Under the pieces are notes generated by a model. It did no database searches, was not told the DNA's origin, and was given only the letters and a program-made list of their open reading frames with translations. This document shows, in pieces, positions 15,577 through 60,984 of a DNA stretch of 64,000 bases. The position numbers and the translations under genes were made by a program. Each line of letters opens with the position of its first letter. Within the stretch, counting starts at the first letter, position 1. Source of the DNA: Hemibagrus wyckioides (Eukaryota > Chordata > Actinopteri > Siluriformes > Bagridae); assembly GCF_019097595.1 (NCBI RefSeq), contig NC_080731.1:12398071-12462070 (forward strand), read 5' to 3'.

Positions 15577-18500
15577 ACTCTATTCTACTCTAGTCTACTC
15601 TATTCTACTCTACTCTACTCTACTCTAATCTAGTCTACTTTATTCTACTCTACTCTATTCTTGTCTACTCTACTGTATTCTACTCTACTCTTGTCTACTC
15701 TACTCTACTATAGTCTACTCTATTCTATTCTACTCTACTATAGTCTACTCTACGCTATTCTACTCTACTATAGTCTACTCTATTCTATTCTACTCTACTA
15801 TAGTCTACTCTATTCTATTCTACTCTACTATAGTCTACTCTATTCTATTCTACTCTACTATAGTCTACTCTATTCTATTCTACTCTACTATAGTCTACTC
15901 TATTCTATTCTACTCTACTATAGTCTACTCTACGCTATTCTACTCTACTATAGTCTACTCTATTCTATTCTACTCTACTATAGTCTACTCTTCTCTAATC
16001 TAGTCTACTTTATTCTACTCTACTCTATTCTTGTCTACTCTACTGTATTCTACTCTACTCTTGTCTACTCTACTCTACTATAGTCTACTCTATTCTATTC
16101 TACTCTACTATAGTCTACTCTTGTCTACTCTATTGTATTCTACTCTACTCTTGTCTACTCTACTCTACTATAGTCTACTCTGCTCTGTTCTACTCTACTA
16201 TAATCTACTCTACTCTACTGTATTCTACTCTACTCTTGTCTACTCTACTCTACTATAGTCTACTCTATTCTATTCTACTCTACTATAGTCTACTCTATTC
16301 TATTCTACTCTACTATAGTCTACTCTATTCTATTCTACTCTACTATAGTCTACTCTACTCTACTCTACTCTAATCTAGTCTACTTTATTCTACTCTACTC
16401 TTGTCTACTCTACTCTACTATAGTCTACTCTATTCTATTCTACTCTACTATAGTCTACTCTACTCTAATCTAGTCTACTTTATTCTACTCTACTCTATTC
16501 TTGTCTACTCTACTGTATTCTACTCTACTCTTGTCTACTCTACTCTACTATAGTCTACTCTATTCTATTCTACTCTACTATAGTCTACTCTATTCTATTC
16601 TACTCTACTATAGTCTACTCTATTCTATTCTACTCTACTATAGTCTACTCTACGCTATTCTACTCTACTATAGTCTACTCTATTCTATTCTACTCTACTA
16701 TAGTCTACTCTACGCTATTCTACTCTACTATAGTCTACTCTTGTCTACTCTATTGTATTCTACTCTACTCTTGTCTACTCTACTCTACTATAGTCTACTC
16801 TGCTCTGTTCTACTCTACTATAATCTACTCTACTCTACTGTATTCTACTCTACTCTTGTCTACTCTACTCTACTATAGTCTACTCTATTCTATTCTACTC
16901 TACTATAGTCTACTCTATTCTATTCTACTCTACTATAGTCTACTCTATTCTATTCTACTCTACTATAGTCTACTCTACTCTACTCTACTCTAATCTAGTC
17001 TACTTTATTCTACTCTACTCTTGTCTACTCTACTCTACTATAGTCTACTCTATTCTATTCTACTCTACTATAGTCTACTCTACTCTACTCTAATCTAGTC
17101 TACTTTATTCTACTCTACTCTATTCTTGTCTACTCTACTGTATTCTACTCTACTCTTGTCTACTCTACTCTACTATAGTCTACTCTATTCTATTCTACTC
17201 TACTATAGTCTACTCTATTCTATTCTACTCTACTATAGTCTACTCTATGCTATTCTACTCTACTATAGTCTACTCTTGTCTACTCTATTGTATTCTACTC
17301 TACTCTTGTCTACTCTACTCTACTATAGTCTACTCTGCTCTGTTCTACTCTACTATAATCTACTCTACTCTACTGTATTCTACTCTACTCTTATCTACTC
17401 TACTCTACTATAGTCTACTCTATTCTACTCTACTATAGTCTACTCTATTCTACTCTACTATAGTCTACTCTACTCTTCTCTACTCTAGTCTACTCTATTC
17501 TACTCTACTATAGTCTACTCTACTCTAATCTAGTCTACTTTATTCTACTCTACTCTTGTCTACTCTAGTCTACTCTATTCTACTCTACTCTAGTCTACTC
17601 TACTCTATTCTACTCTACTATACTATAGTCTAGTCTACTCTACTCTATTCTACTCTACTCTATTATAGTCTACTCTACTCTATTCTACTCTACTCTACTA
17701 TAGTCTACTCTACTCTTCTCTGCTCTTGTCTACTCTAGTCTACTCTACTATAGTCTACTCTACTCTACTCTACTCTAGTCTAGTCTCCTCTACTATAGTC
17801 TACTCTACTCTATTCTACTCTACTCTTGTCTACTCTATTTTACTCTTCTCTACTCTTGTCTTCTCTAGTCTACTCTATTCCACTCTACTCTAGTCTACTC
17901 TACTCTATTCTACTCTACTATACTATAGTCTAGTCTACTCTACTCTATTCTACTCTACTCTATTATAGTCTACTCTACTCTATTCTACTCTACTCTACTA
18001 TAGTCTACTCTACTCTTCTCTGCTCTTGTCTACTCTAGTCTACTCTACTATAGTCTACTCTACTCTACTCTACTCTAGTCTAGTCTCCTCTACTATAGTC
18101 TACTCTACTCTATTCTACTCTACTCTTGTCTACTCTATTTTACTCTTCTCTACTCTTGTCTTCTCTAGTCTACTCTATTCCACTCTACTCTAGTCTATTC
18201 CACTCTGTCTCTAGTCTTTTCTATTCTACTCTACTCTAGTCTACTCTACTCTACTCTACTCTACTCTAGTCTACTCTACTCTATTCCACTCTACTCTAGT
18301 CTATTCCACTCTGTCTCTAGTCTTTTCTATTCTACTCTACTCTAGTCTACTCTACTCTACTCTACTCTAGTCTACTCTACTCTATTCCACTCTACTCTAG
18401 TCTATTCCACTCTGTCTCTAGTCTTCTCTAATCTACTCTACTCTAGTCTACTCTGCTCTAGTCTACTCTAGTCTTTTCTACTCTATTCTACTGTACTTTT

Positions 18501-18637
18501 ACTCTAGTCTACTCTAGTCTTTTCTACTCTACTCTATTTACTCACTGTACTCTACTGTACTTTACTTTACTTTACTCTTCTTTACTTTACTTTACTTTAC
18601 TCTTTTCTACTCTACTGTACTGTACTCTACTCTACTG
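15577..18637. repeat. 3.06-kb TCTAC-pentamer satellite with higher-order units
   Basis: The array is built from five-base words (TACTC, TATTC, TAGTC and variants). The left two thirds are dominated by a 30-base unit, TACTC-TATTC-TATTC-TACTC-TACTA-TAGTC. A longer block starting TTGTCTACTCTACTGTATTC recurs at 15661, 16031, 16501 and 17126. Near 17581-18180 a 300-base unit is duplicated almost perfectly. Because the period is a multiple of 5, 15-base phase keeps frames open, but these are not genes. Confidence 0.97.
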
Positions 18638-45449: not shown

Positions 45450-47590
45450 GTCTCGCTGTCTTTGCGCTGCAGTGTAAAACAAGTCCCGGAATCTGACCTT
45501 GAAGAAACACTCGGCACACCCTTTAGACAGATCTGGGACTTATAGGGAAATTATTTGCACATATGCACAGTGCACAGCACGCTACTCCTTAACATTGCTT
45601 TGACTCATGGTTCATAGTGTGGTGATGAGCAATTTGTTAGCAAATAAAGCAGGTGACATAATAACAACGTAATTGGCTGTTATTATACATAATCAGATAA
45701 TGGACTGTTTTTGCAGCTTTGTGGAAGTGACAATAAAATGACTCTAATCTTTCTTGATAGATGTGAGGAATAAAAAAAATGCATCTAAAAAACATTTATT
45801 AAAATCACACTTTAATGTATTTTTATTACAATAGATCTAGCGTCATTTCAATGTATGTATGTGACTCCTGGCAGAATACACTGTATCAGTTTGGCAGGTT
45901 TTTTGAAAGACTCAAAAGCGACATTTTACCTTCCTAGTTTATTTTTCTAGTCACATTTTGTACAACTTATCTTTATATTAATCTCTTAAATGACAAAAAT
46001 TAAGTGCATGTATCTAGAGAGCCATTAGAAAATTCAAGAACTTGCCAAAAAAAAAAGATTTTTAAGCACATGTAAATTCATTTTGCAAAAATGCAAAATA
46101 ATGAAATGAAAAGGTTTTCTGTATAATCTGTGAGGAATAATCCACTACAGGGCAAGCTGAGATAGGAAAGTAATCAGTGTTAGGCTGCTTTATTTTCTGA
46201 TAGCAGCACAGCCTGAAGTATTCATTCATTTATTTGCAGAATCTTTTACATTTTACAGATTACAATTTACAGAATGTACATCATGAGGTGAATGGGATCA
46301 GTTACAACATGAAATTTCTCACAGGGTTTGTGAGTATGGCTCAGATCCATTGAGGAGCATCTTATCATTTTCCTTCTCTTTCTTCACTTTCAGGTGAAAG
46401 TCAGGTCCAGACTCCACAGTGCCGTATCCAGAAGTGCACCACAGACTTCGTCTCACTCACATCTCACCTGAACCCGTCTCTGGATGGCTTCGACACTGAG
46501 TTTTGTAAGGCTCTGCGAGCCTACTCGGGCTGCACACACCGCACCGCCAAGAGCTGCAGGGGCAACCTGGTTTTCCACTCGGCCATGCTGGGTATTAGTG
46601 ACCTCATGAGCCAGAGGAACTGCTCCAAAGACGGACCCACGTCCTCCACGCACCCGGCCGTTTCTATCGAGCCCTGCAACTACCACAGCCGCTTCCATCA
46701 TCACCAGGCTGTACCCACCGCCACAGGCACAGGGATCGCCGGCACACCGGAGCACGCACGGCCCAACTACCTGTTCTGTGGTCTGTTTGGAGACCCGCAC
46801 CTTCGGACTTTTAAGGACCAGTTTCAGACGTGCAAGGTGGAGGGGGCGTGGCCTCTTATTGATAATAATTACCTGTCAGTGCAGGTAACGAACGTGCCAG
46901 TGGTGCAAGGATCAAGTGCCACAGCAACAAACAAGGTGAGTGACCTTCTATTGTGTGTTGTGCAACTGTAGAGGAAAGAACACAATCCTCTAATTACATA
47001 TACAACAGAACCTGATGAACGTTTATCAAACCAAATTCAGATTTAAGTTAGATTTTCAGTTCGTATGTTAGCTGCTGTTTTAGAGTCATTTATACAGAAT
47101 TGATGTTTATTTCTTGAATCTGATTGGACAGAAGGTATTTTTTTGTGTAACAGCAGCTCAGGAAATCATAATATAGTGCAATCACTGGTTTTTAATAATG
47201 CACATGTTATTATACACAACTGTTTCCATAGTAACAGTTCATTCACAGTCACTTGTATGGCAGATGCTCCACGTCATCTCAGGTTAATAATAAAACATGC
47301 TGATATTCAACAAAGCAAAAGATATTATCTTCATATGTGATGGAGTTTCGTGAAGGAGATGTTTATTTAATATTTATGAAAGCAGTGTACGGCGTCTTAT
47401 TGGATAGAACGTTAGCTTCACACTTCCGGGGTTGTGGATTTGATTCCTATCTCTGCTCTGTGTGCACAGGGAGTTTACATGTTCTCCCTGTGCTTTGTGT
47501 GTTTTCTCTGGGTACTCTGTCCGGTTTCATCCAAAGATATGAATTGGAGGTTGTTTGGCATCTCTACATTTTTTGTGGTGTGTTTATGTA

Positions 47591-47669
<79 letters not shown>

Positions 47670-50652
47670 ACCCTTCAATTAGTTGGTATCCCATCCAGGG
47701 TGTCCCTAACCATGTGCCCCAAGTCATCTTGAATAGACTCCTGGCTCACAGTTAGTAAGTTTTCTGTTACAGGAAAGTCCTCAGGACCGAGGCGCTATGC
47801 CCTTTCTTGTTAGCATGACAAGCAGTCTGAGCCAAAGTGAAGAAAGTATATAGTGATATATCTGTACCTGGTGTGTAGATGGTGCAGTCTGTAGGTATAC
47901 AGTGATTTTAATATATTGTTTTAGTTGTATTGCATGTACTAGTTAGTAGATCAGTGTGGTTTAGTGCATTTAGCTGAATATATAGTTCAGTAGTACAGCA
48001 TATAGTGTGGCTGAATGACATCAGACTTACTAGTTCATATACATTGTATTTTCTTGCCAGAGCAACCTTTTTTATTACTCTATATGTGTAATAAAGTCAT
48101 TATAGTATGAGTAGCAGACTAAAAAAAGACACAAGTCGTAGAAGTGCGACAACTTTGAGTGACTGTCTACAGGTGTTAGCTGAACAAAGCACAGTGCTCA
48201 GGTCTTGTGACTAACACTTGTGACTAACACGTCTGTGAAACTCCAACGTTGCTAATGACTGGATATAACTCGGGCTCAGGCGTGACCCTTAATAAGGTGG
48301 CCTTGAAAGAAGGCTCTGTGTCCATTTTTTTCCAACTTGTCCGGCTGTAAGACCTCACACACACATATACGCACACATACATGTGCACACACCAAGACAG
48401 TATATTGGCTGCTGCATGCTAGACATCATTCTGTCTTCTACTGATTGTAAATATTTGTCAAACTAGCAAGGTTTTGAGATGCATGCTCTAGACAAGTCTC
48501 TTCTCTTTCCCCAAACTACAAATGTGAAGCTCATCCAAGGTCGAGTGAGGGGTACACCACTTGGTTGTGTGAGGGGTATAACTACCCACGTCTCATTTGT
48601 GACCTTGTGACTTTGGAGGTGGGGCGCGTTATTAGCGCTCGCCCGTAATTATTAGCACACACTGCTCGACTGAGGCCCTTTCAGCTGCCTCACCTAATGG
48701 CTAGTTAGTGGTCATTTTTCATCCATGTCATGAGAACAAAGCTTGCATTCATCCTGCACTAATGTAACGCCACACATCTTGTTACTCCGCAGGCTTCCCC
48801 CGTTTTGTGTGTGTGTGTGTTATGGATCAGCATGACTGGAAATCTGTAGAGTTATGTTTGTGTGTGTCTTAAGGCAAGTGCATGCTGACAGGCAAATACA
48901 CACTGACATTGGTTACTAACTAAAACAGCAAATATATTAAAGCATATTGTCAGTATAATGCTAATTGGTTGCTGATATTAAATGTACCATTCTGAGTTCA
49001 GTAGTTATGGGTTTGACCAGAGGGTTGTGAGTTTAAATCCCAGGATTGACCCCATGCCATGAAATCAGCTTCCCATCCTTGGGAAAAATATTTGCCCCCT
49101 TGAGAATAAGCATTAAAGGAGCAGTTTGTCATTCTCAGAGCCTTCTGTGGCCTGTGATTATAATTATAATGAAAATGCTACACACCCTGTCCTCCTCCTT
49201 CTCCTCTTCATTTATCTCATCCTACTCCTCCTCCTCTTTCTTTTCCTCCTCTTCCTTTATCCCCTCATCCACCTCATCCACTTCCTCCTCTTCCTTTATC
49301 TCCTCCTCCTCCTTTATCTCCTCCTCTTCCTTTATCTCCTCCACCTCTGCCTCTTCCTTTATCTCCTCCTCCTCCACCTCCTCTGCCTCCTTCTTTATCT
49401 CCTCCTCCTCCTTTATCTCCTCCTCTTCCTTTATCTCCTCCACCTCTGCCTCTTCCTTTATCTCCTCCTCCTCCACCTCCTCTGCCTCCTTCTTTATCTC
49501 CTCCTCCCCCACCTCCTTCTCTTCCTCTATCTCCTCCTCCACCTCCTCCTCCTTCTCCTTTATCTCCTCCTCCAACTCCTCCTCCTCTGCCTCCTCCTCC
49601 TCCTTTCTCTCCTCCTCCTCCTTCTCTTCCTTTATCTCCTTCTCCACCCCCCCCCTCCTCCTCCTGAGCAGCTCTGTTCCTACATCACAGTCATAGTTTT
49701 TAGAGCAAATGAACGTGAAATGGATCTTTAATACATTTAAAAGCCACTCTGCTTGCTCCAGACTTTGCAGATACAAGTGCTGGTTTAGATCTGTTGCTGA
49801 TAAAAAGGGTGGAGTTCCATTCTTTTTCATAAGAACTTTCTGCTGGCACAGAATGTATGAGATGAGCAGTAATACGTCTTACAGTCTTTTTTCAGAGTGT
49901 CCTGTAATGATGAGTGTAAACAAAATAAAGCAGAAAAACAAAAAGCAAAGAGGTCTGAATGCAAGAGCAACTGATCATGTGCTGGTTTCTGTTTCCAGAT
50001 CACTGTCATCTTCAAACCGTATCAGGAGTGCACAGAGCAGAAGGTGTACCAGGCGGTGACGGATGATCTGCCGGCGGCGTTCATGGACGGCACTGTCATA
50101 GGTGGCACTAGCGAGACACGCAGCCTGGTGGTGCTGGAAAAGCTGGCAGGTCGCCACGTGGAGCTGCACGCCGCCTACATTGGCGTAACGGTGGTGGTGC
50201 GCCAGCTGGGCCGTTACCTTACGCTCGCCGTACGCATGCCCCACGAGCTTGCTATGGCTTATGATGACACTCAGGACCTGCAGCTGTGTGTGAACGGCTG
50301 CCCCGCCTCAGAGCGCATCGAGCTGCCTGCACTCGGCCTCCAGCACGGCGCCACTCCCTCTCTCCCTGCTGTCTCTCCACCTCAGCAGGCCTTCACACTC
50401 GAGAGCGCCTCCAGAAAGTGCAGCGAGCAGCTGCAGGTCCAGGACATCTATTTCCACTCGTGCGTCTTTGACCTGCTCACCACCGGCGACGCCAACTTCA
50501 CCGCTGCCGCCTACAGCGCCCTCAAGGACGTGGAAGCGCTGCACCCCGAGAGGGATCGCTGGCACATTTTCCCTCGCTCTGCAGCTGGGTTAAGACTGAC
50601 AGCAGCCCTGAATGCACTTCTCGTTTGCTTATTCGCCGCTGCACTTTTGTAA
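40616..50652 (+). CDS. rgmb: Repulsive guidance molecule B (RGMb/Dragon), three coding exons, 431 aa
   Basis: Joining 40616..40715, 46394..46935 and 49999..50652 gives 431 residues with GT-AG introns and matching phases (1 then 0). The product has the full RGM layout: a signal peptide (about 1-33), a Cys-rich N-terminal RGM domain starting near Cys43, a variable His-rich linker, the FGDPH autocleavage motif with the scissile Asp167-Pro168 bond, a partial von Willebrand type D-like C-terminal domain (about 169-385), and a hydrophobic tail (about 414-431) typical of GPI addition. Sequons are visible at Asn109 (NCS) and Asn380 (NFT). Blocks such as CTTDFVSLTSHL, SDLMSQRNCSKDG and KVYQAVTDDLPAAF match RGMB rather than RGMA or hemojuvelin. 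The family binds BMP ligands and neogenin at the cell surface. Length is close to human RGMB (437 aa from memory). Codon use is GC-rich in exons 2 and 3 against AT-rich flanks. Confidence 0.96.
43254..43340. repeat. (AT)n palindromic tract in rgmb intron 1
   Basis: Three alternating AT runs are separated by short AT-rich joints, able to form cruciforms. Confidence 0.95.
43885..44060 (+). repeat. Degenerate SINE fragment in rgmb intron 1
   Basis: GGACTAAGGCTTTGGGCTACAGAG and GCTCAAATCTCAGC resemble the A- and B-box regions of the 4360/13545 family, with a decayed GAGCACCACCC counterpart of the GAGCAAGGCCC motif. Confidence 0.5.
46394..46935 (+). CDS. rgmb: rgmb coding exon 2: N-terminal RGM domain and GDPH cleavage site
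   Basis: The exon opens after a pyrimidine-rich acceptor ending at AG 46392-46393 and closes at AAG|GTGAGT (donor 46936). It encodes residues 34-214. After a short linker comes the Cys-rich domain (Cys43, Cys48 and others), which in this family forms the helical bundle that binds BMP. A linker with a His triplet follows, then YLFCGLFGDPH, whose Asp-Pro bond is cleaved autocatalytically in family members. The last segment begins the C-terminal domain. The linker near 46680-46760 is the least conserved part. Confidence 0.95.
47060..47340 (+). repeat. Dispersed AT-rich repeat in rgmb intron 2
   Basis: TTTCCATAGTAACAGTTCATTCACAG with GGCAGATGCTCCAC is shared in diverged form with 12815-12875 (TTTCTATAGTAACAGTTTAC). 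Its left part CTGATTGGACAGAAGG is like 23164-23185. The family is unassigned. Confidence 0.5.
47390..47760 (+). repeat. SINE-like repeat in rgmb intron 2, interrupted by microsatellite
   Basis: GGATTTGATTCCTATCTCTG is a B-box-like start. The body has GGGTACTCTGTCCGGTTTC and ends at CATCCAGGGTGTCCCTAACC. A (GT)n(GA)n run of about 65 bases (47600-47665) grew inside it. Confidence 0.6.
49190..49665 (+). repeat. (CCT)n-type pyrimidine tract in rgmb intron 2
   Basis: About 470 bases of CCT, CTT and ATC triplets are frame-preserving, so they produce 200-residue Ser-, Leu- or Glu-rich frames. A 114-base block is tandemly repeated (49327 and 49423 regions). Confidence 0.95.
49999..50652 (+). CDS. 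rgmb: rgmb coding exon 3: C-terminal RGM domain and GPI signal
   Basis: The acceptor is a pyrimidine tract ending AG at 49997-49998, the exon starts in phase 0, and the TAA stop is at 50650-50652. It encodes residues 215-431, including VYQAVTDDLPAAF, LQLCVNGCP, and DIYFHSCVFDLLTTGDANF, all typical of RGMB, and ends with the WHIFP motif (Trp402) followed by a hydrophobic GPI-attachment signal. The insertion around residues 328-345 (Pro, Ser, Ala-rich) is variable between RGMs. Base composition is strongly GC-biased compared with both flanks. Confidence 0.95.
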   Translation: MTVIFKPYQECTEQKVYQAVTDDLPAAFMDGTVIGGTSETRSLVVLEKLAGRHVELHAAYIGVTVVVRQLGRYLTLAVRMPHELAMAYDDTQDLQLCVNGCPASERIELPALGLQHGATPSLPAVSPPQQAFTLESASRKCSEQLQVQDIYFHSCVFDLLTTGDANFTAAAYSALKDVEALHPERDRWHIFPRSAAGLRLTAALNALLVCLFAAALL

Positions 50653-53262: not shown

Positions 53263-54354
53263 AGCGAGGAGTGTGATTATATTGTGCATTGATGTGATGC
53301 TGATACAGCGTGTGTATCTGCCGATACATCTGTTTTTGACATCCGATACAACCTTTCTATGAAATATTGCCCCTAGTAGGCTAGGTAAAAACAGAAAATG
53401 CTTAAACGCTTAATTCTTAAAGCCCTGAGTGTCTACTTTCATATGAGCCATTAAACACTACCATGGAATGTGGCATGACAAAGACATTCAATGCTGAACA
53501 TGGACATAACAAAGCAGGCGGAAATTCCTTTTAGTTAAAGTTAAAGAAACGTTTTACTTTTAAAACATTTGAAAATTGAGAAATTAATGGCTTTTAAGTT
53601 TCCAGTTTTCATTCCAGTTCCACTGATATATGCCACATATTCCTCTACATTTATAACTTTACCTGCTTATGGAAACATACTGCCAAATATTAAGAATTGT
53701 AAGTTTACTATAGTAATAGAGTATAGTAGTTTACCATAGGTAAAGCTTTCTGCCTAATTTTCAGCCACTGATGTACTTTAAAGTAAAAGATTTCCACACA
53801 GACTTGGTAAAGTATAAGTATAATATTTTAGCTTTGGCTATTTTCAGCTACAGAGAAGCTGATGGATTTTCCCACACTGCCTCATATTTATTATTATTAT
53901 TATTATTACATGTGCTATTCATAACTAAATCATACACAATCCTTATTGTATGAGTGAAATGAAAGAACCTTCATTGACTGTTCAAACATGCTCACACTAG
54001 TCACAATATGAAACTGACATTCCCTTGGTTTCGAGGTAACCGAACAGACAAAGCTGTCTCGTGCATTTCACCTGTTCTTTATAGCTTGAGGTTCATTTGT
54101 GATCTGATAATTCCTTGTTCTCACACCACAAAATGTAGCACCTGCGTTTGCATCAGAAAGCCTGGTTTCATTATCTGATGGCACGGCCTGAGAAAAAGCA
54201 AAGCCCAACATTCAAAATGTTCAGCTCCTACACAGTGAGGACACCAGGAGTGAGCTGCATCCAAGTGGAACAGGTCTTCTAAAATCTTCCTGTGGAGCTC
54301 GGTTCTTCAGTCATTCATTCAGTCGTGACATTCTGATAAAAAATACTGAGTATA

Positions 54355-54534: not shown

Positions 54535-54644
54535 TTACCATTTTATTACCGCTGTGGCTGTCATCAAGACATTGAAGACTGTGATCTTCACAAGGATAAT
54601 CCTAAGAAAATGGATGACCAGAAGGGCAGTGTGTGCTTGGATAG
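54535..54644 (-). CDS. ptcra: ptcra exon 4: transmembrane segment and short tail
   Basis: The acceptor is pyrimidine-rich and ends CAG at 54647-54645. The exon gives residues 141-176: a hydrophobic span of about 22 residues with Arg155 and Lys160, then FNVLMT, and a tail ending VIKW before TAA (54537-54535). Mammalian pTalpha has a long proline-rich tail in this exon and here it is missing. A GTAAAA immediately after the penultimate codon could act as a donor to a further tail exon, so the end is provisional. Confidence 0.8.
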
Positions 54645-55455
54645 CTGGTGGAATGAAAGAAAACAGTGCTCTTTACTTTGCCCGACTTAAACCTGGCTCA
54701 TATGAAAATACTAAATATACGACTACAAATATATGACAAACCGTTAGAAAAGCTGTCATGCTCAGGACACGTATGCTCCATGTTCTCATGATCAAAATCT
54801 AAAACTTAAAAACACACACACAATTATAATCAACAAATTAATTGCAAAAAATATTTCATTGTTTTTCAGCATTGCCATAGGTCTGTGTTTTAACGTCTGT
54901 TCCTTGCACTGAATGAGTGACCCAGAGAAAACACACAGTAATTCGAGACCATTTAAGATGATGAGCTGTCGATTTACCTTTTCTGCTCATTGGCAGTCCA
55001 TAGTTGTGTCCAACCTTGAAGCGAATCGTGCTTCGGTGACTGATGAAGCAAGTGTACGTGTCCCATCCCACAGAGACAAGTGAATGGACAGACACTACGT
55101 CCTGAGCGTCTTCTTTTCCTTGTATGTTATATAAGGCAGGGTTTGATCTGCTGGTATGTTTGGAGAGCCAGTGCATCCCTCCATCCCGGTTTAAAACGTC
55201 ATTGACCACACAGACCAGTATGGTCAAGCCTCCGTGGTCCAGCGGGATGTGGAAAAAGGGTGATGTGGAAAAGGGGGCAGCCTTTACATCCGCCATGTTA
55301 TGCACTGTCAAATAGACATCATAAATCATGAATTAATATGGCATTGGTATGGCATATCAACAACCCAGGACTATATCATTTAAAGATATCAGGTTCTCCA
55401 TAAATGTCTCACACTTACTTGTAAGGAGCAGGATGATAAGTAAGCTGCGGAGCAT
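54535..55455 (-). CDS. ptcra: Pre-T-cell receptor alpha-like chain (pTalpha), four exons, 176 aa
   Basis: Exons complement(55419..55455), (54978..55304), (54742..54798) and (54535..54644) join with GT-AG borders, every intron in phase 1, to 176 residues. The product has a signal peptide (about 1-13), one C1-type Ig domain with Cys44, Trp58 and Cys98, a connecting peptide with a single Cys132 in the context HTCPE, and a transmembrane segment with Arg155 and Lys160. In known pTalpha the Ig domain pairs with TCR beta, the connecting Cys makes the interchain disulfide, and the basic residues recruit CD3. The TM stretch LRIILVKITVFNVLMT follows human pTalpha position by position (L-R, K five later, F, LxT) and also resembles TCR alpha. 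The signal peptide is on its own exon and no V or J segment is seen, which argues for an invariant chain. The tail is only a few residues. A TCR-alpha-like paralogue is the main alternative. Confidence 0.83.
54742..54798 (-). CDS. ptcra: ptcra exon 3: connecting peptide with interchain cysteine
   Basis: This 57-nt exon, phase 1 to phase 1, follows a good T-rich acceptor (AG 54800-54799). It supplies residues 122-140, an acidic His-containing stretch with one Cys132 in TCPEH. Mammalian pTalpha has a similarly tiny exon with TCPQE. The donor (GTTTGT at 54741) is weaker than consensus, so the 3' border is the least certain splice of the gene. Confidence 0.7.
54978..55304 (-). CDS. ptcra: ptcra exon 2: C1-type immunoglobulin domain
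   Basis: The acceptor AG is at 55306-55305 and the donor GT at 54977-54976, in and out of phase 1, giving 109 codons. The Ig core is clear: VCVVNDV around Cys44, the core Trp58 14 residues later, and GWDTYTC with Cys98, a 54-residue Cys-Cys spacing. Trp93 lies five residues before the second Cys, as in mammalian pTalpha (SWEPLVC), rather than the longer spacing of ordinary C1 domains. No N-glycosylation sequon is present, which differs from mammals. Confidence 0.85.
55419..55455 (-). CDS. ptcra: ptcra exon 1: signal peptide
   Basis: This encodes MLRSLLIILLLT plus the first base of codon 13, followed by a perfect GTAAGT donor (55418-55413). The ATG has A at -3. The stretch is a compact hydrophobic leader. 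It is too short to show as an open frame by itself and was found by looking upstream of the Ig exon for a phase-1 donor. Confidence 0.78.
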
Positions 55456-57214: not shown

Positions 57215-57465
57215 TCATTCATTCATTCATTCATTCATTCATTCATTCATTGTCTTCCGCTTATCCGGAGCCGGGTCGCGTGGGCAGCAGTCTAAGTAGG
57301 GATGCCCAGACTTCCTTTTCCCTAGCTCTTCCGGGGGGATTCCGAGATGTTCCCATGTCAGCTGAGAGACATAGTCCCTCCAGCGTGTCCTGGGTCTTCC
57401 CTGGGGTCTCTTCCCTGGTGGGGCATGCCTGGAACACCTCCCCAGGGAGACATCCAGAGTGCTGA
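57215..57465 (-). mobile_element. Non-LTR retrotransposon (LINE) 3' fragment
   Basis: On the minus strand this reads GKRPQGRPRTRWRDYVSQL followed by WEHLGIPPEEL, the well-known C-terminal end of fish non-LTR reverse transcriptase ORFs, and then ends in a (GAAT)n tail at 57208-57251, consistent with the 3' microsatellite tail of such elements. It is 5'-truncated. Confidence 0.75.
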
Positions 57466-58629
57466 TACTCAGTATAACATAATATCGAGTTGTTCGTTTA
57501 AGAACCAAACCAAAATCATATCATATCAGACCCTAACAGCAGACTCTCGACTCTCTCCTCCTATCATAGGCCCCACCCACTGAAAACTTACGTATTTGTG
57601 GCAACGCCCCTAACAATTGCACTTGATTGTTCTTAAAACAGACTTTGAGGCTTTAACAGTGTTTTAGTAGATTAGTCATAGCTTGTTTCATACTTAGTTT
57701 GCGTGTTTTTAACAATAGTTTTAGTTTCCTGTTGTCAGTGTTCTTGCCCTAGCCTGTTATTATCTGCTTGCACTTTCAATCCCCTTGTGACAAGGTGTTG
57801 GAAACATCTTCTGTTCATTATCATGATCTCTTCACTGTGTCACTAGTGACAGTCGCAGACAGTGCATCTCGCCTGCTCACGGTTCACTAAGGTTCTATTA
57901 CAGAATCCATTTATTTGTCTTTCGCTTTGATTCATGTTTACTTCCTGCTTTTTATGCTGCCTTGACCTTCGCTGTATCCGAAAACACTCCCTCACTATAT
58001 ACTATAGACTGTTCTACATAGAGCAGTACATAGGACCACAAACTGAATTAAGAAAACACTGACTAATGAAACACATTAGTGTGGTCAGTCATTGCATAAA
58101 AATGAATACAGTAAAAATTACAAACTGAAAACACAAAAATACCGACCTAGGACCAGGGATGCTAATCCCTTGGAGTATAAAAATGTATTTACCAAAAACC
58201 TGGGGTTAAAAATACCCTTCTACTGAACCCCCTCTGGTTCCCCTATATCAAAGGTTATTAGTACATGCTGTAAAATACTATGCTAAGCTCAAGGATACAT
58301 ATTGCTTACCTTTGCCTGAAGCAACCATGACCTTCGTTTACTCAAAGCAAAAAGAAAAATATGAATTATTTACTATAATTTACACTGATACCAGCACATT
58401 TGTTAATTCATATTTCTGGCAGGGTTTAATGTAATATATAATTTTAACATTATATGGCATGAAATGTAATAATAGATTATCTGTGCAGAGGCATAATAGC
58501 CCTTATAAATAATAGCTAATAGCTATTAATAAATAATAATTAATAGCGCTTATAAACGCAATTTTGAAAAGGACTATATAATAATCGCCAGTGTAACTTA
58601 CACCATGATGAAGCTCCTCATCATGGCAC

Positions 58630-59572: not shown

Positions 59573-60984
<1,412 letters not shown>

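Follow-up and report, generated by a model that had tools for sequence, protein, structure and literature searches.

A likely pre-T-cell receptor alpha gene in catfishes and other teleosts

We find that a 64,000-nucleotide stretch of the Hemibagrus wyckioides genome (the window) carries a four-exon gene that is very probably a single-copy teleost ptcra, the product of which is likely to be the invariant surrogate alpha chain of the fish pre-T-cell receptor (pre-TCR). Papers from 2019-2025 treat teleost PTCRA as missing or unidentified. According to one of them, PTCRA 'arose in amniotes' and fish are without obvious surrogate genes (PMC9614664, 2022); an amniote origin is also concluded in PMC12529555, and absence from amphibians and fish is stated in PMC10464911 (2023). 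The excerpts of PMC7824517, PMC4558533 and PMC9138301 say nothing on a fish gene. Among the titles and abstracts listed from open-licence PubMed Central, we found no report of a fish PTCRA. The gene described here gives fish immunologists something concrete with which to ask how a beta chain is checked in fish thymocytes and how each cell is held to a single receptor.

Structure and neighbourhood of the gene

The candidate ptcra occupies positions 54535-55455 of the window on the minus strand and comprises four exons separated by GT..AG introns, with all three introns in phase 1. The features of the gene and of its convergent neighbour, rgmb, are as follows.

55455-55419, minus strand: ptcra coding exon 1, 37 nt; start codon and hydrophobic leader MLRSLLIILLLT; donor GTAAGT, phase 1
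55304-54978, minus strand: ptcra coding exon 2, 327 nt; acceptor TTTGACAG, donor GTAAAT; single C1-type Ig domain, with Cys44, Trp58, Trp93 and Cys98
54798-54742, minus strand: ptcra coding exon 3, 57 nt; acceptor TTTTAG, donor GTTTGT; connecting peptide DFDHENMEHTCPEHDSFSN with its sole cysteine, Cys132
54644-54535, minus strand: ptcra coding exon 4, 110 nt; acceptor CCACCAG, stop TAA; membrane helix LRIILVKITVFNVLMT with Arg155 and Lys160
53887..53892, minus strand: candidate poly(A) signal AATAAA (motif only), the first past the ptcra stop
46354..46971, plus strand: rgmb exon, open frame
49975..50652, plus strand: further, more 3′ rgmb coding exon, open frame

Joined, exons 1-4 give a 531-nt CDS that encodes 176 residues with no internal stops. 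The joins are those of a predicted model, with which independent gene models from other species agree, and analysis of the sequence confirms the four-exon gene at 54535-55455 as real, far beyond chance. A preliminary description of this DNA had drawn four minus-strand exons with phase-1 borders, and the same coordinates, 531-nt open frame and GT..AG introns were recovered here; the leader, C1 domain (Cys44, Trp58, Cys98), one-cysteine connecting peptide and helix with Arg155 and Lys160 that it listed can all be read from the 176-residue model. The protein further contains Cys132, Trp93 and Trp176, its connecting peptide is about 19 residues long, and its tail is very short, with the stop falling seven residues past FNVLMT, a motif of the helix. 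Leaders akin to that of the window protein are present in the relatives P0001, P0004 and P0007. Across the 790-Mb genome of the species, the window protein finds just three matches at E <= 10, which are ptcra exons 2, 3 and 4; the gene is single-copy in H. wyckioides. Downstream of the stop, 54244-54348 (minus strand) matches the final part of the Silurus asotus gene model at 57% identity with in-frame stops, and is either a 3′ untranslated segment that has been conserved or an exon predicted in error.

The preliminary description had also placed the gene beside rgmb, and this holds: the two rgmb exons, when joined, match RGM domain family member B (6z3m_C) with an E value of 5.7e-141. It had proposed looking for the same pair in other teleosts, and one instance is found in the bonefish Albula glossodonta, in which protein P0039 covers ptcra exon 2 with its residues 48-148 and, with residues 138-327 and 330-417, antisense frames of both rgmb exons of the window, in preserved order. 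P0039 is a gene model fused by mistake; since it spans both ptcra exon 2 and the antisense rgmb exons, this bonefish has the tail-to-tail ptcra-rgmb pair as well. On the other side of ptcra, within 80 kb past the window end (69-87 kb in window numbering), lie what we take to be ERAP/LNPEP-like aminopeptidases, followed by urea-transporter-like copies and a SETBP1-like gene. In the human genome, the genes corresponding to rgmb and to the aminopeptidases are neighbours on 5q15, so this block may be old. Amniote PTCRA adjoins CNPY3 (PMC9614664), a placement that the window gene, with rgmb as its neighbour, does not share. Genomic position is not part of the definition of PTCRA, and the fish gene may have moved from the CNPY3 side or may be a genome-duplication paralog.

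Relatives, conservation and age

Nineteen proteins match the window protein at E <= 10, with E values from 9.1e-92 to 1.8e-6. Full-length proteins from catfishes, a characin and knifefishes are of near-equal length and align end to end, including the connecting peptide and the helix. Whole-chain relatives among the matches listed come from catfishes (Ameiurus, Clarias, Silurus, Tachysurus), the characin Metynnis, the knifefishes Electrophorus and Brachyhypopomus, cyprinoids (Culter, Onychostoma, Cirrhinus, Xyrauchen, Carassius) and elopomorphs (Albula, Anguilla, Conger, Megalops), so that ptcra is kept in four fish groups outside catfishes. The closest named protein, from the bagrid catfish Tachysurus ichikawai, has 84% identity with the window model, and such database-labelled fish relatives belong with it to one gene family. 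None of the matches listed comes from zebrafish, salmonids or spiny-rayed fishes; the searches were seeded by exact words, and one of them gave the best 120 of 196 matches, so that birds, reptiles and other fishes may be in the remainder. Because the query of that 196-match search included a typed human PTCRA, its mammalian E values were not used as evidence.

In the NCBI lineages, from which three species were looked up, the first split within Teleostei separates Elopocephalai from Osteoglossocephalai, with Elopomorpha and Otophysi on opposite sides. As the gene occurs on both sides, it was present in the common ancestor of Elopomorpha and Otophysi. In both trees described below, the orders within the fish clade group broadly like the species tree, as one inherited gene would.

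In a 22-row fish alignment the Cys-Trp-Cys of the C1 domain is invariant, and the Arg and Lys of the helix are nearly so (at least 90%). This conservation of single residues over fish orders, together with the four-exon open frame and intact splice signals, makes it extremely improbable that ptcra is decayed or never expressed, a reading to which the different end of the Silurus asotus model P0013 might lend some weight. The connecting peptide varies among gene models: those of P0036 (Anguilla rostrata isoform X2) and P0006 (Bagarius yarrelli) are without this stretch, and such a chain would miss the cysteine that is expected to bond TCR beta. The eel isoforms P0033 and P0036 differ solely by this stretch, which is ptcra exon 3. 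In P0004 (Silurus meridionalis) the cysteine of the connecting peptide sits a few residues away from its position in other catfishes.

Placement with PTCRA

The Pfam PTCRA model (PF15028, cut-off 23.1 bits) was reached by five of the 20 fish proteins scanned, all within the gene's own clade: P0033 and P0035 (37.8 bits each), P0027 (33.2 bits), P0024 (25.4 bits) and P0020 (23.9 bits). For P0033, P0035 and P0027 (eel, conger and bonefish), PTCRA was the best family, above C1-set. The window protein itself gave no Pfam PTCRA match and a C1-set E value of 0.042, under the Pfam cut-off. Since it is too diverged to be classed alone, the identification runs via its eel, bonefish and cyprinoid relatives. 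Among eight non-PTCRA controls the PTCRA model matched one, own_L002, at 20.6 bits, under the cut-off; this locus of the same genome (C2:22060075-22063308) fits C1-set far better, at 81.5 bits.

An HMM built from 104 mammalian PTCRA, applied over the whole chain, gave each of the 19 fish proteins a score higher than any of the 26 controls: 5.0-52.8 bits for the fish (12.1 bits for the window model) and 4.2 bits for the best control. In the opposite direction, a full-length fish HMM gave the 104 mammalian PTCRA a median of 32.2 and a best score of 43.0, and none of seven typed human C1 chains more than 28.5. Profiles were also compared with single sequences in a design that keeps sizes equal, with 27 other C1 chains (19 own-genome and 8 typed) as controls for 16 mammalian PTCRA. 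All 16 PTCRA scored above every control with the elopomorph profile (60.6-79.8 versus <= 49.8), the all-fish profile (57.1-83.6 versus <= 50.0) and the otophysan profile (45.2-66.6 versus <= 43.7).

Single-sequence searches rank antibody constant domains first: with the eel protein as query, human pre-TCR alpha (3of6_D) is matched with an E value of 1.5e-6, and the constant domains of IgM (4.8e-11) and IgE (2.3e-9) both do better. A mammalian ectodomain HMM gives the window model 3.4, under several controls (own_L002, 19.1; human IGLC, 15.7), and a fish ectodomain HMM shows no preference for PTCRA, with a best of 24.7 and a median of 18.5 for the 104 mammalian proteins and 28.0, 27.4 and 27.2 for own_L002, human IGLC and own_L023. 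These antibody matches, and a fish ectodomain HMM that does not part mammalian PTCRA from immunoglobulin light chains, would fit a membrane protein with a single C1 domain of some other kind, immunoglobulin-like or MHC-like, which uses the charged helix to pair with an adaptor of its own and is unrelated to TCR beta. We consider this reading highly unlikely, given that the Arg/Lys spacing is that of TRAC and PTCRA, that the connecting peptide holds a cysteine, that the full-length profile match is collinear, and that both trees support the clade.

Maximum-likelihood analysis joins the PTCRA of fish and of mammals in a single clade, with support of 99/95 at full length (61 rows, 160 columns) and 100/99 for the ectodomain without the helix (57 rows, 101 columns); PTCRA is represented in these comparisons by mammals, and fish TRAC and TRDC and bird and reptile PTCRA are outside both trees. 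AU tests on the same trees do not reject the grouping of fish with TRAC (p = 0.38 at full length and 0.47 for the ectodomain) and, for the ectodomain tree, that of fish with own_L002 (p = 0.24) and, barely, with IgL (p = 0.056). TRAC is a very long branch in the trees, which fish TRAC might shorten.

The AU result leaves some room for a separate ray-finned-fish invariant chain, derived from a copy of TRAC or TRDC without V or J, which may act as a surrogate alpha by convergence. The helix motifs R-x4-K and FN-x-LMT are common to TRAC, as is the connecting-peptide cysteine; the catfish-only profile rates the mouse TRAC helix (34.6) above 15 of the 16 mammalian PTCRA, and also ranks TRAC over the mammalian PTCRA profile; and the genomic place differs from that in amniotes (PMC9614664). 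We nevertheless judge such an origin unlikely. Profile similarity to TRAC covers just 19-34 residues (21-34, around the helix, with the elopomorph, all-fish and otophysan profiles), whereas mammalian PTCRA aligns to these three profiles over 134-152, and the ectodomain by itself joins mammalian PTCRA. Even within the helix, human TRAC (0.7) scores lower on a mammalian PTCRA HMM than each of the 19 fish chains (2.6-18.3, with 9.0 for the window model); one of these chains, P0011 (2.6), falls slightly under the non-TCR control own_L023 (2.8). The TRAC Pfam model DUF1968 (PF09291) matched none of the 20 fish proteins, the window protein included, and gave typed human TRAC 130 bits; because it finds nothing above its cut-off anywhere in the H. 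wyckioides genome (two weaker matches, neither TRAC-like), it may be blind to fish TRAC.

Descent of the fish chain from a common PTCRA thus appears well supported by these comparisons, short of proof, because the divergence of the catfish proteins, the ectodomain HMM and the AU results count against it. The preliminary description had named the gene pTalpha and proposed a tree as a check; the clades above, the profile comparisons and the Pfam scores of the relatives all place it with PTCRA, with the AU values for TRAC as given. AlphaFold2 models were too weak for use (mean pLDDT 52 for the Tachysurus relative; 63, with pTM 0.36, for the eel relative), the helix of the Tachysurus relative having mean pLDDT of 79-93 in blocks over residues 141-175.

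The sets behind these comparisons were as follows. Of 28 own-genome C1 loci (L001-L008 and L020-L039), 19 served as controls, and L005, L006, L008 (the same site as L027), L024, L028, L035, L037, L038 and L039 were left out. Fragments (P0005, P0008-P0010, P0012, P0014, P0016-P0019, P0029), models without the connecting peptide (P0006, P0036), with another end (P0013), fused (P0039), partial (P0028, P0030, P0031, P0067) or with extra ends (P0032) were kept out of the trees and HMMs. The mammalian PTCRA numbered 104 in the HMM, 16 in the full-length tree and the profile comparisons, and 11 in the ectodomain tree.

V(D)J context and the TCR beta partner

V or J segments rearranging to the gene, which the preliminary description had named as evidence against pTalpha, would be expected of TRAC, a constant gene that serves rearranged V-J. 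No J-like motif was found in 144 kb (the window and a further 80 kb upstream of ptcra), versus three motifs in 9 kb of the TRB locus of the same genome. An RSS scan of the window found none above chance and also missed the signals of the TRB control, so the J-motif scan, which passed that control, was used instead. In the gene model, the leader exon is predicted to be spliced straight to the constant-type domain, with no V or J between, and V(D)J joining would therefore not be needed.

The partner that such a chain would need exists, as TRB constant exons and J segments with FGxGT motifs are present on another contig (L021 and L020, C9:21383500-21393000), and the constant exons group with human TRBC1 in the full-length tree (99/89). 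These two loci also offer a ready handle on the H. wyckioides TRB locus.

Proposed role in beta-selection

By analogy with the mammalian pre-TCR, we suggest that Cys132 bonds the TCR beta chain and that Arg155 and Lys160, five apart as in TRAC and mammalian PTCRA, hold the CD3 dimers. The assembled pre-TCR would, free of ligand, signal the presence of an in-frame beta chain, and this signal would halt TRB rearrangement, drive proliferation and open TRA. The tail of mammalian PTCRA is proline-rich. In contrast, the fish chain has almost no cytoplasmic tail, so its signalling would depend on CD3 alone; if the chain works, a proline-rich tail cannot be required in fish, where only a few residues remain. 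A natural pre-TCR alpha that nearly lacks this tail bears on the role of the tail in mammals.

The fish chain shares with amniote PTCRA (PF15028; 3of6) the leader, the single C1-type Ig domain, the one-cysteine connecting peptide, the Arg/Lys pair and the character of an invariant, unrearranged chain; it differs in the tail and in adjoining rgmb rather than CNPY3, and mammalian members are 22-28% identical to the eel protein. From TRAC it differs in its own leader exon, in the absence of a near J-like motif and of a DUF1968 match, and in a profile similarity confined to the helix. In B cells, VpreB and lambda5, V-like and C-like pieces, are soluble and lack a membrane helix. They form the surrogate light chain and, like the fish chain proposed here, substitute in invariant form for a chain whose rearrangement comes later (PMC9614664).

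With a teleost gene, what was taken for an amniote origin becomes a loss from amphibians and perhaps from some of the fishes. We think it probable that a germline pre-TCR alpha was present in the bony-vertebrate ancestor, that it persists in eels, bonefish, carps, characins and catfishes, where it would run beta-selection and TRB allelic exclusion in the thymus, and that it was lost in amphibians and perhaps in zebrafish and spiny-rayed fishes. The preliminary description had, subject to confirmation of the gene, dated the pre-TCR checkpoint to before the split of ray-finned fish and tetrapods; the great age of the chain bears this out in part, and pairing with TCR beta and beta-selection as a working checkpoint in fish are what we infer by analogy.

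Other features of the window

Upstream of ptcra, an open frame at 57239-57520 (minus strand) resembles what we take to be the tail of a LINE reverse transcriptase, and another at 59880-60419 (plus strand), 4.4 kb upstream, looks similar to a Tc1-like transposase. A 3-kb minisatellite of 10- and 15-base units at 15577-18637 has a strong strand bias (GC skew of -0.72 in 16001-18000) and contains long, meaningless open frames.
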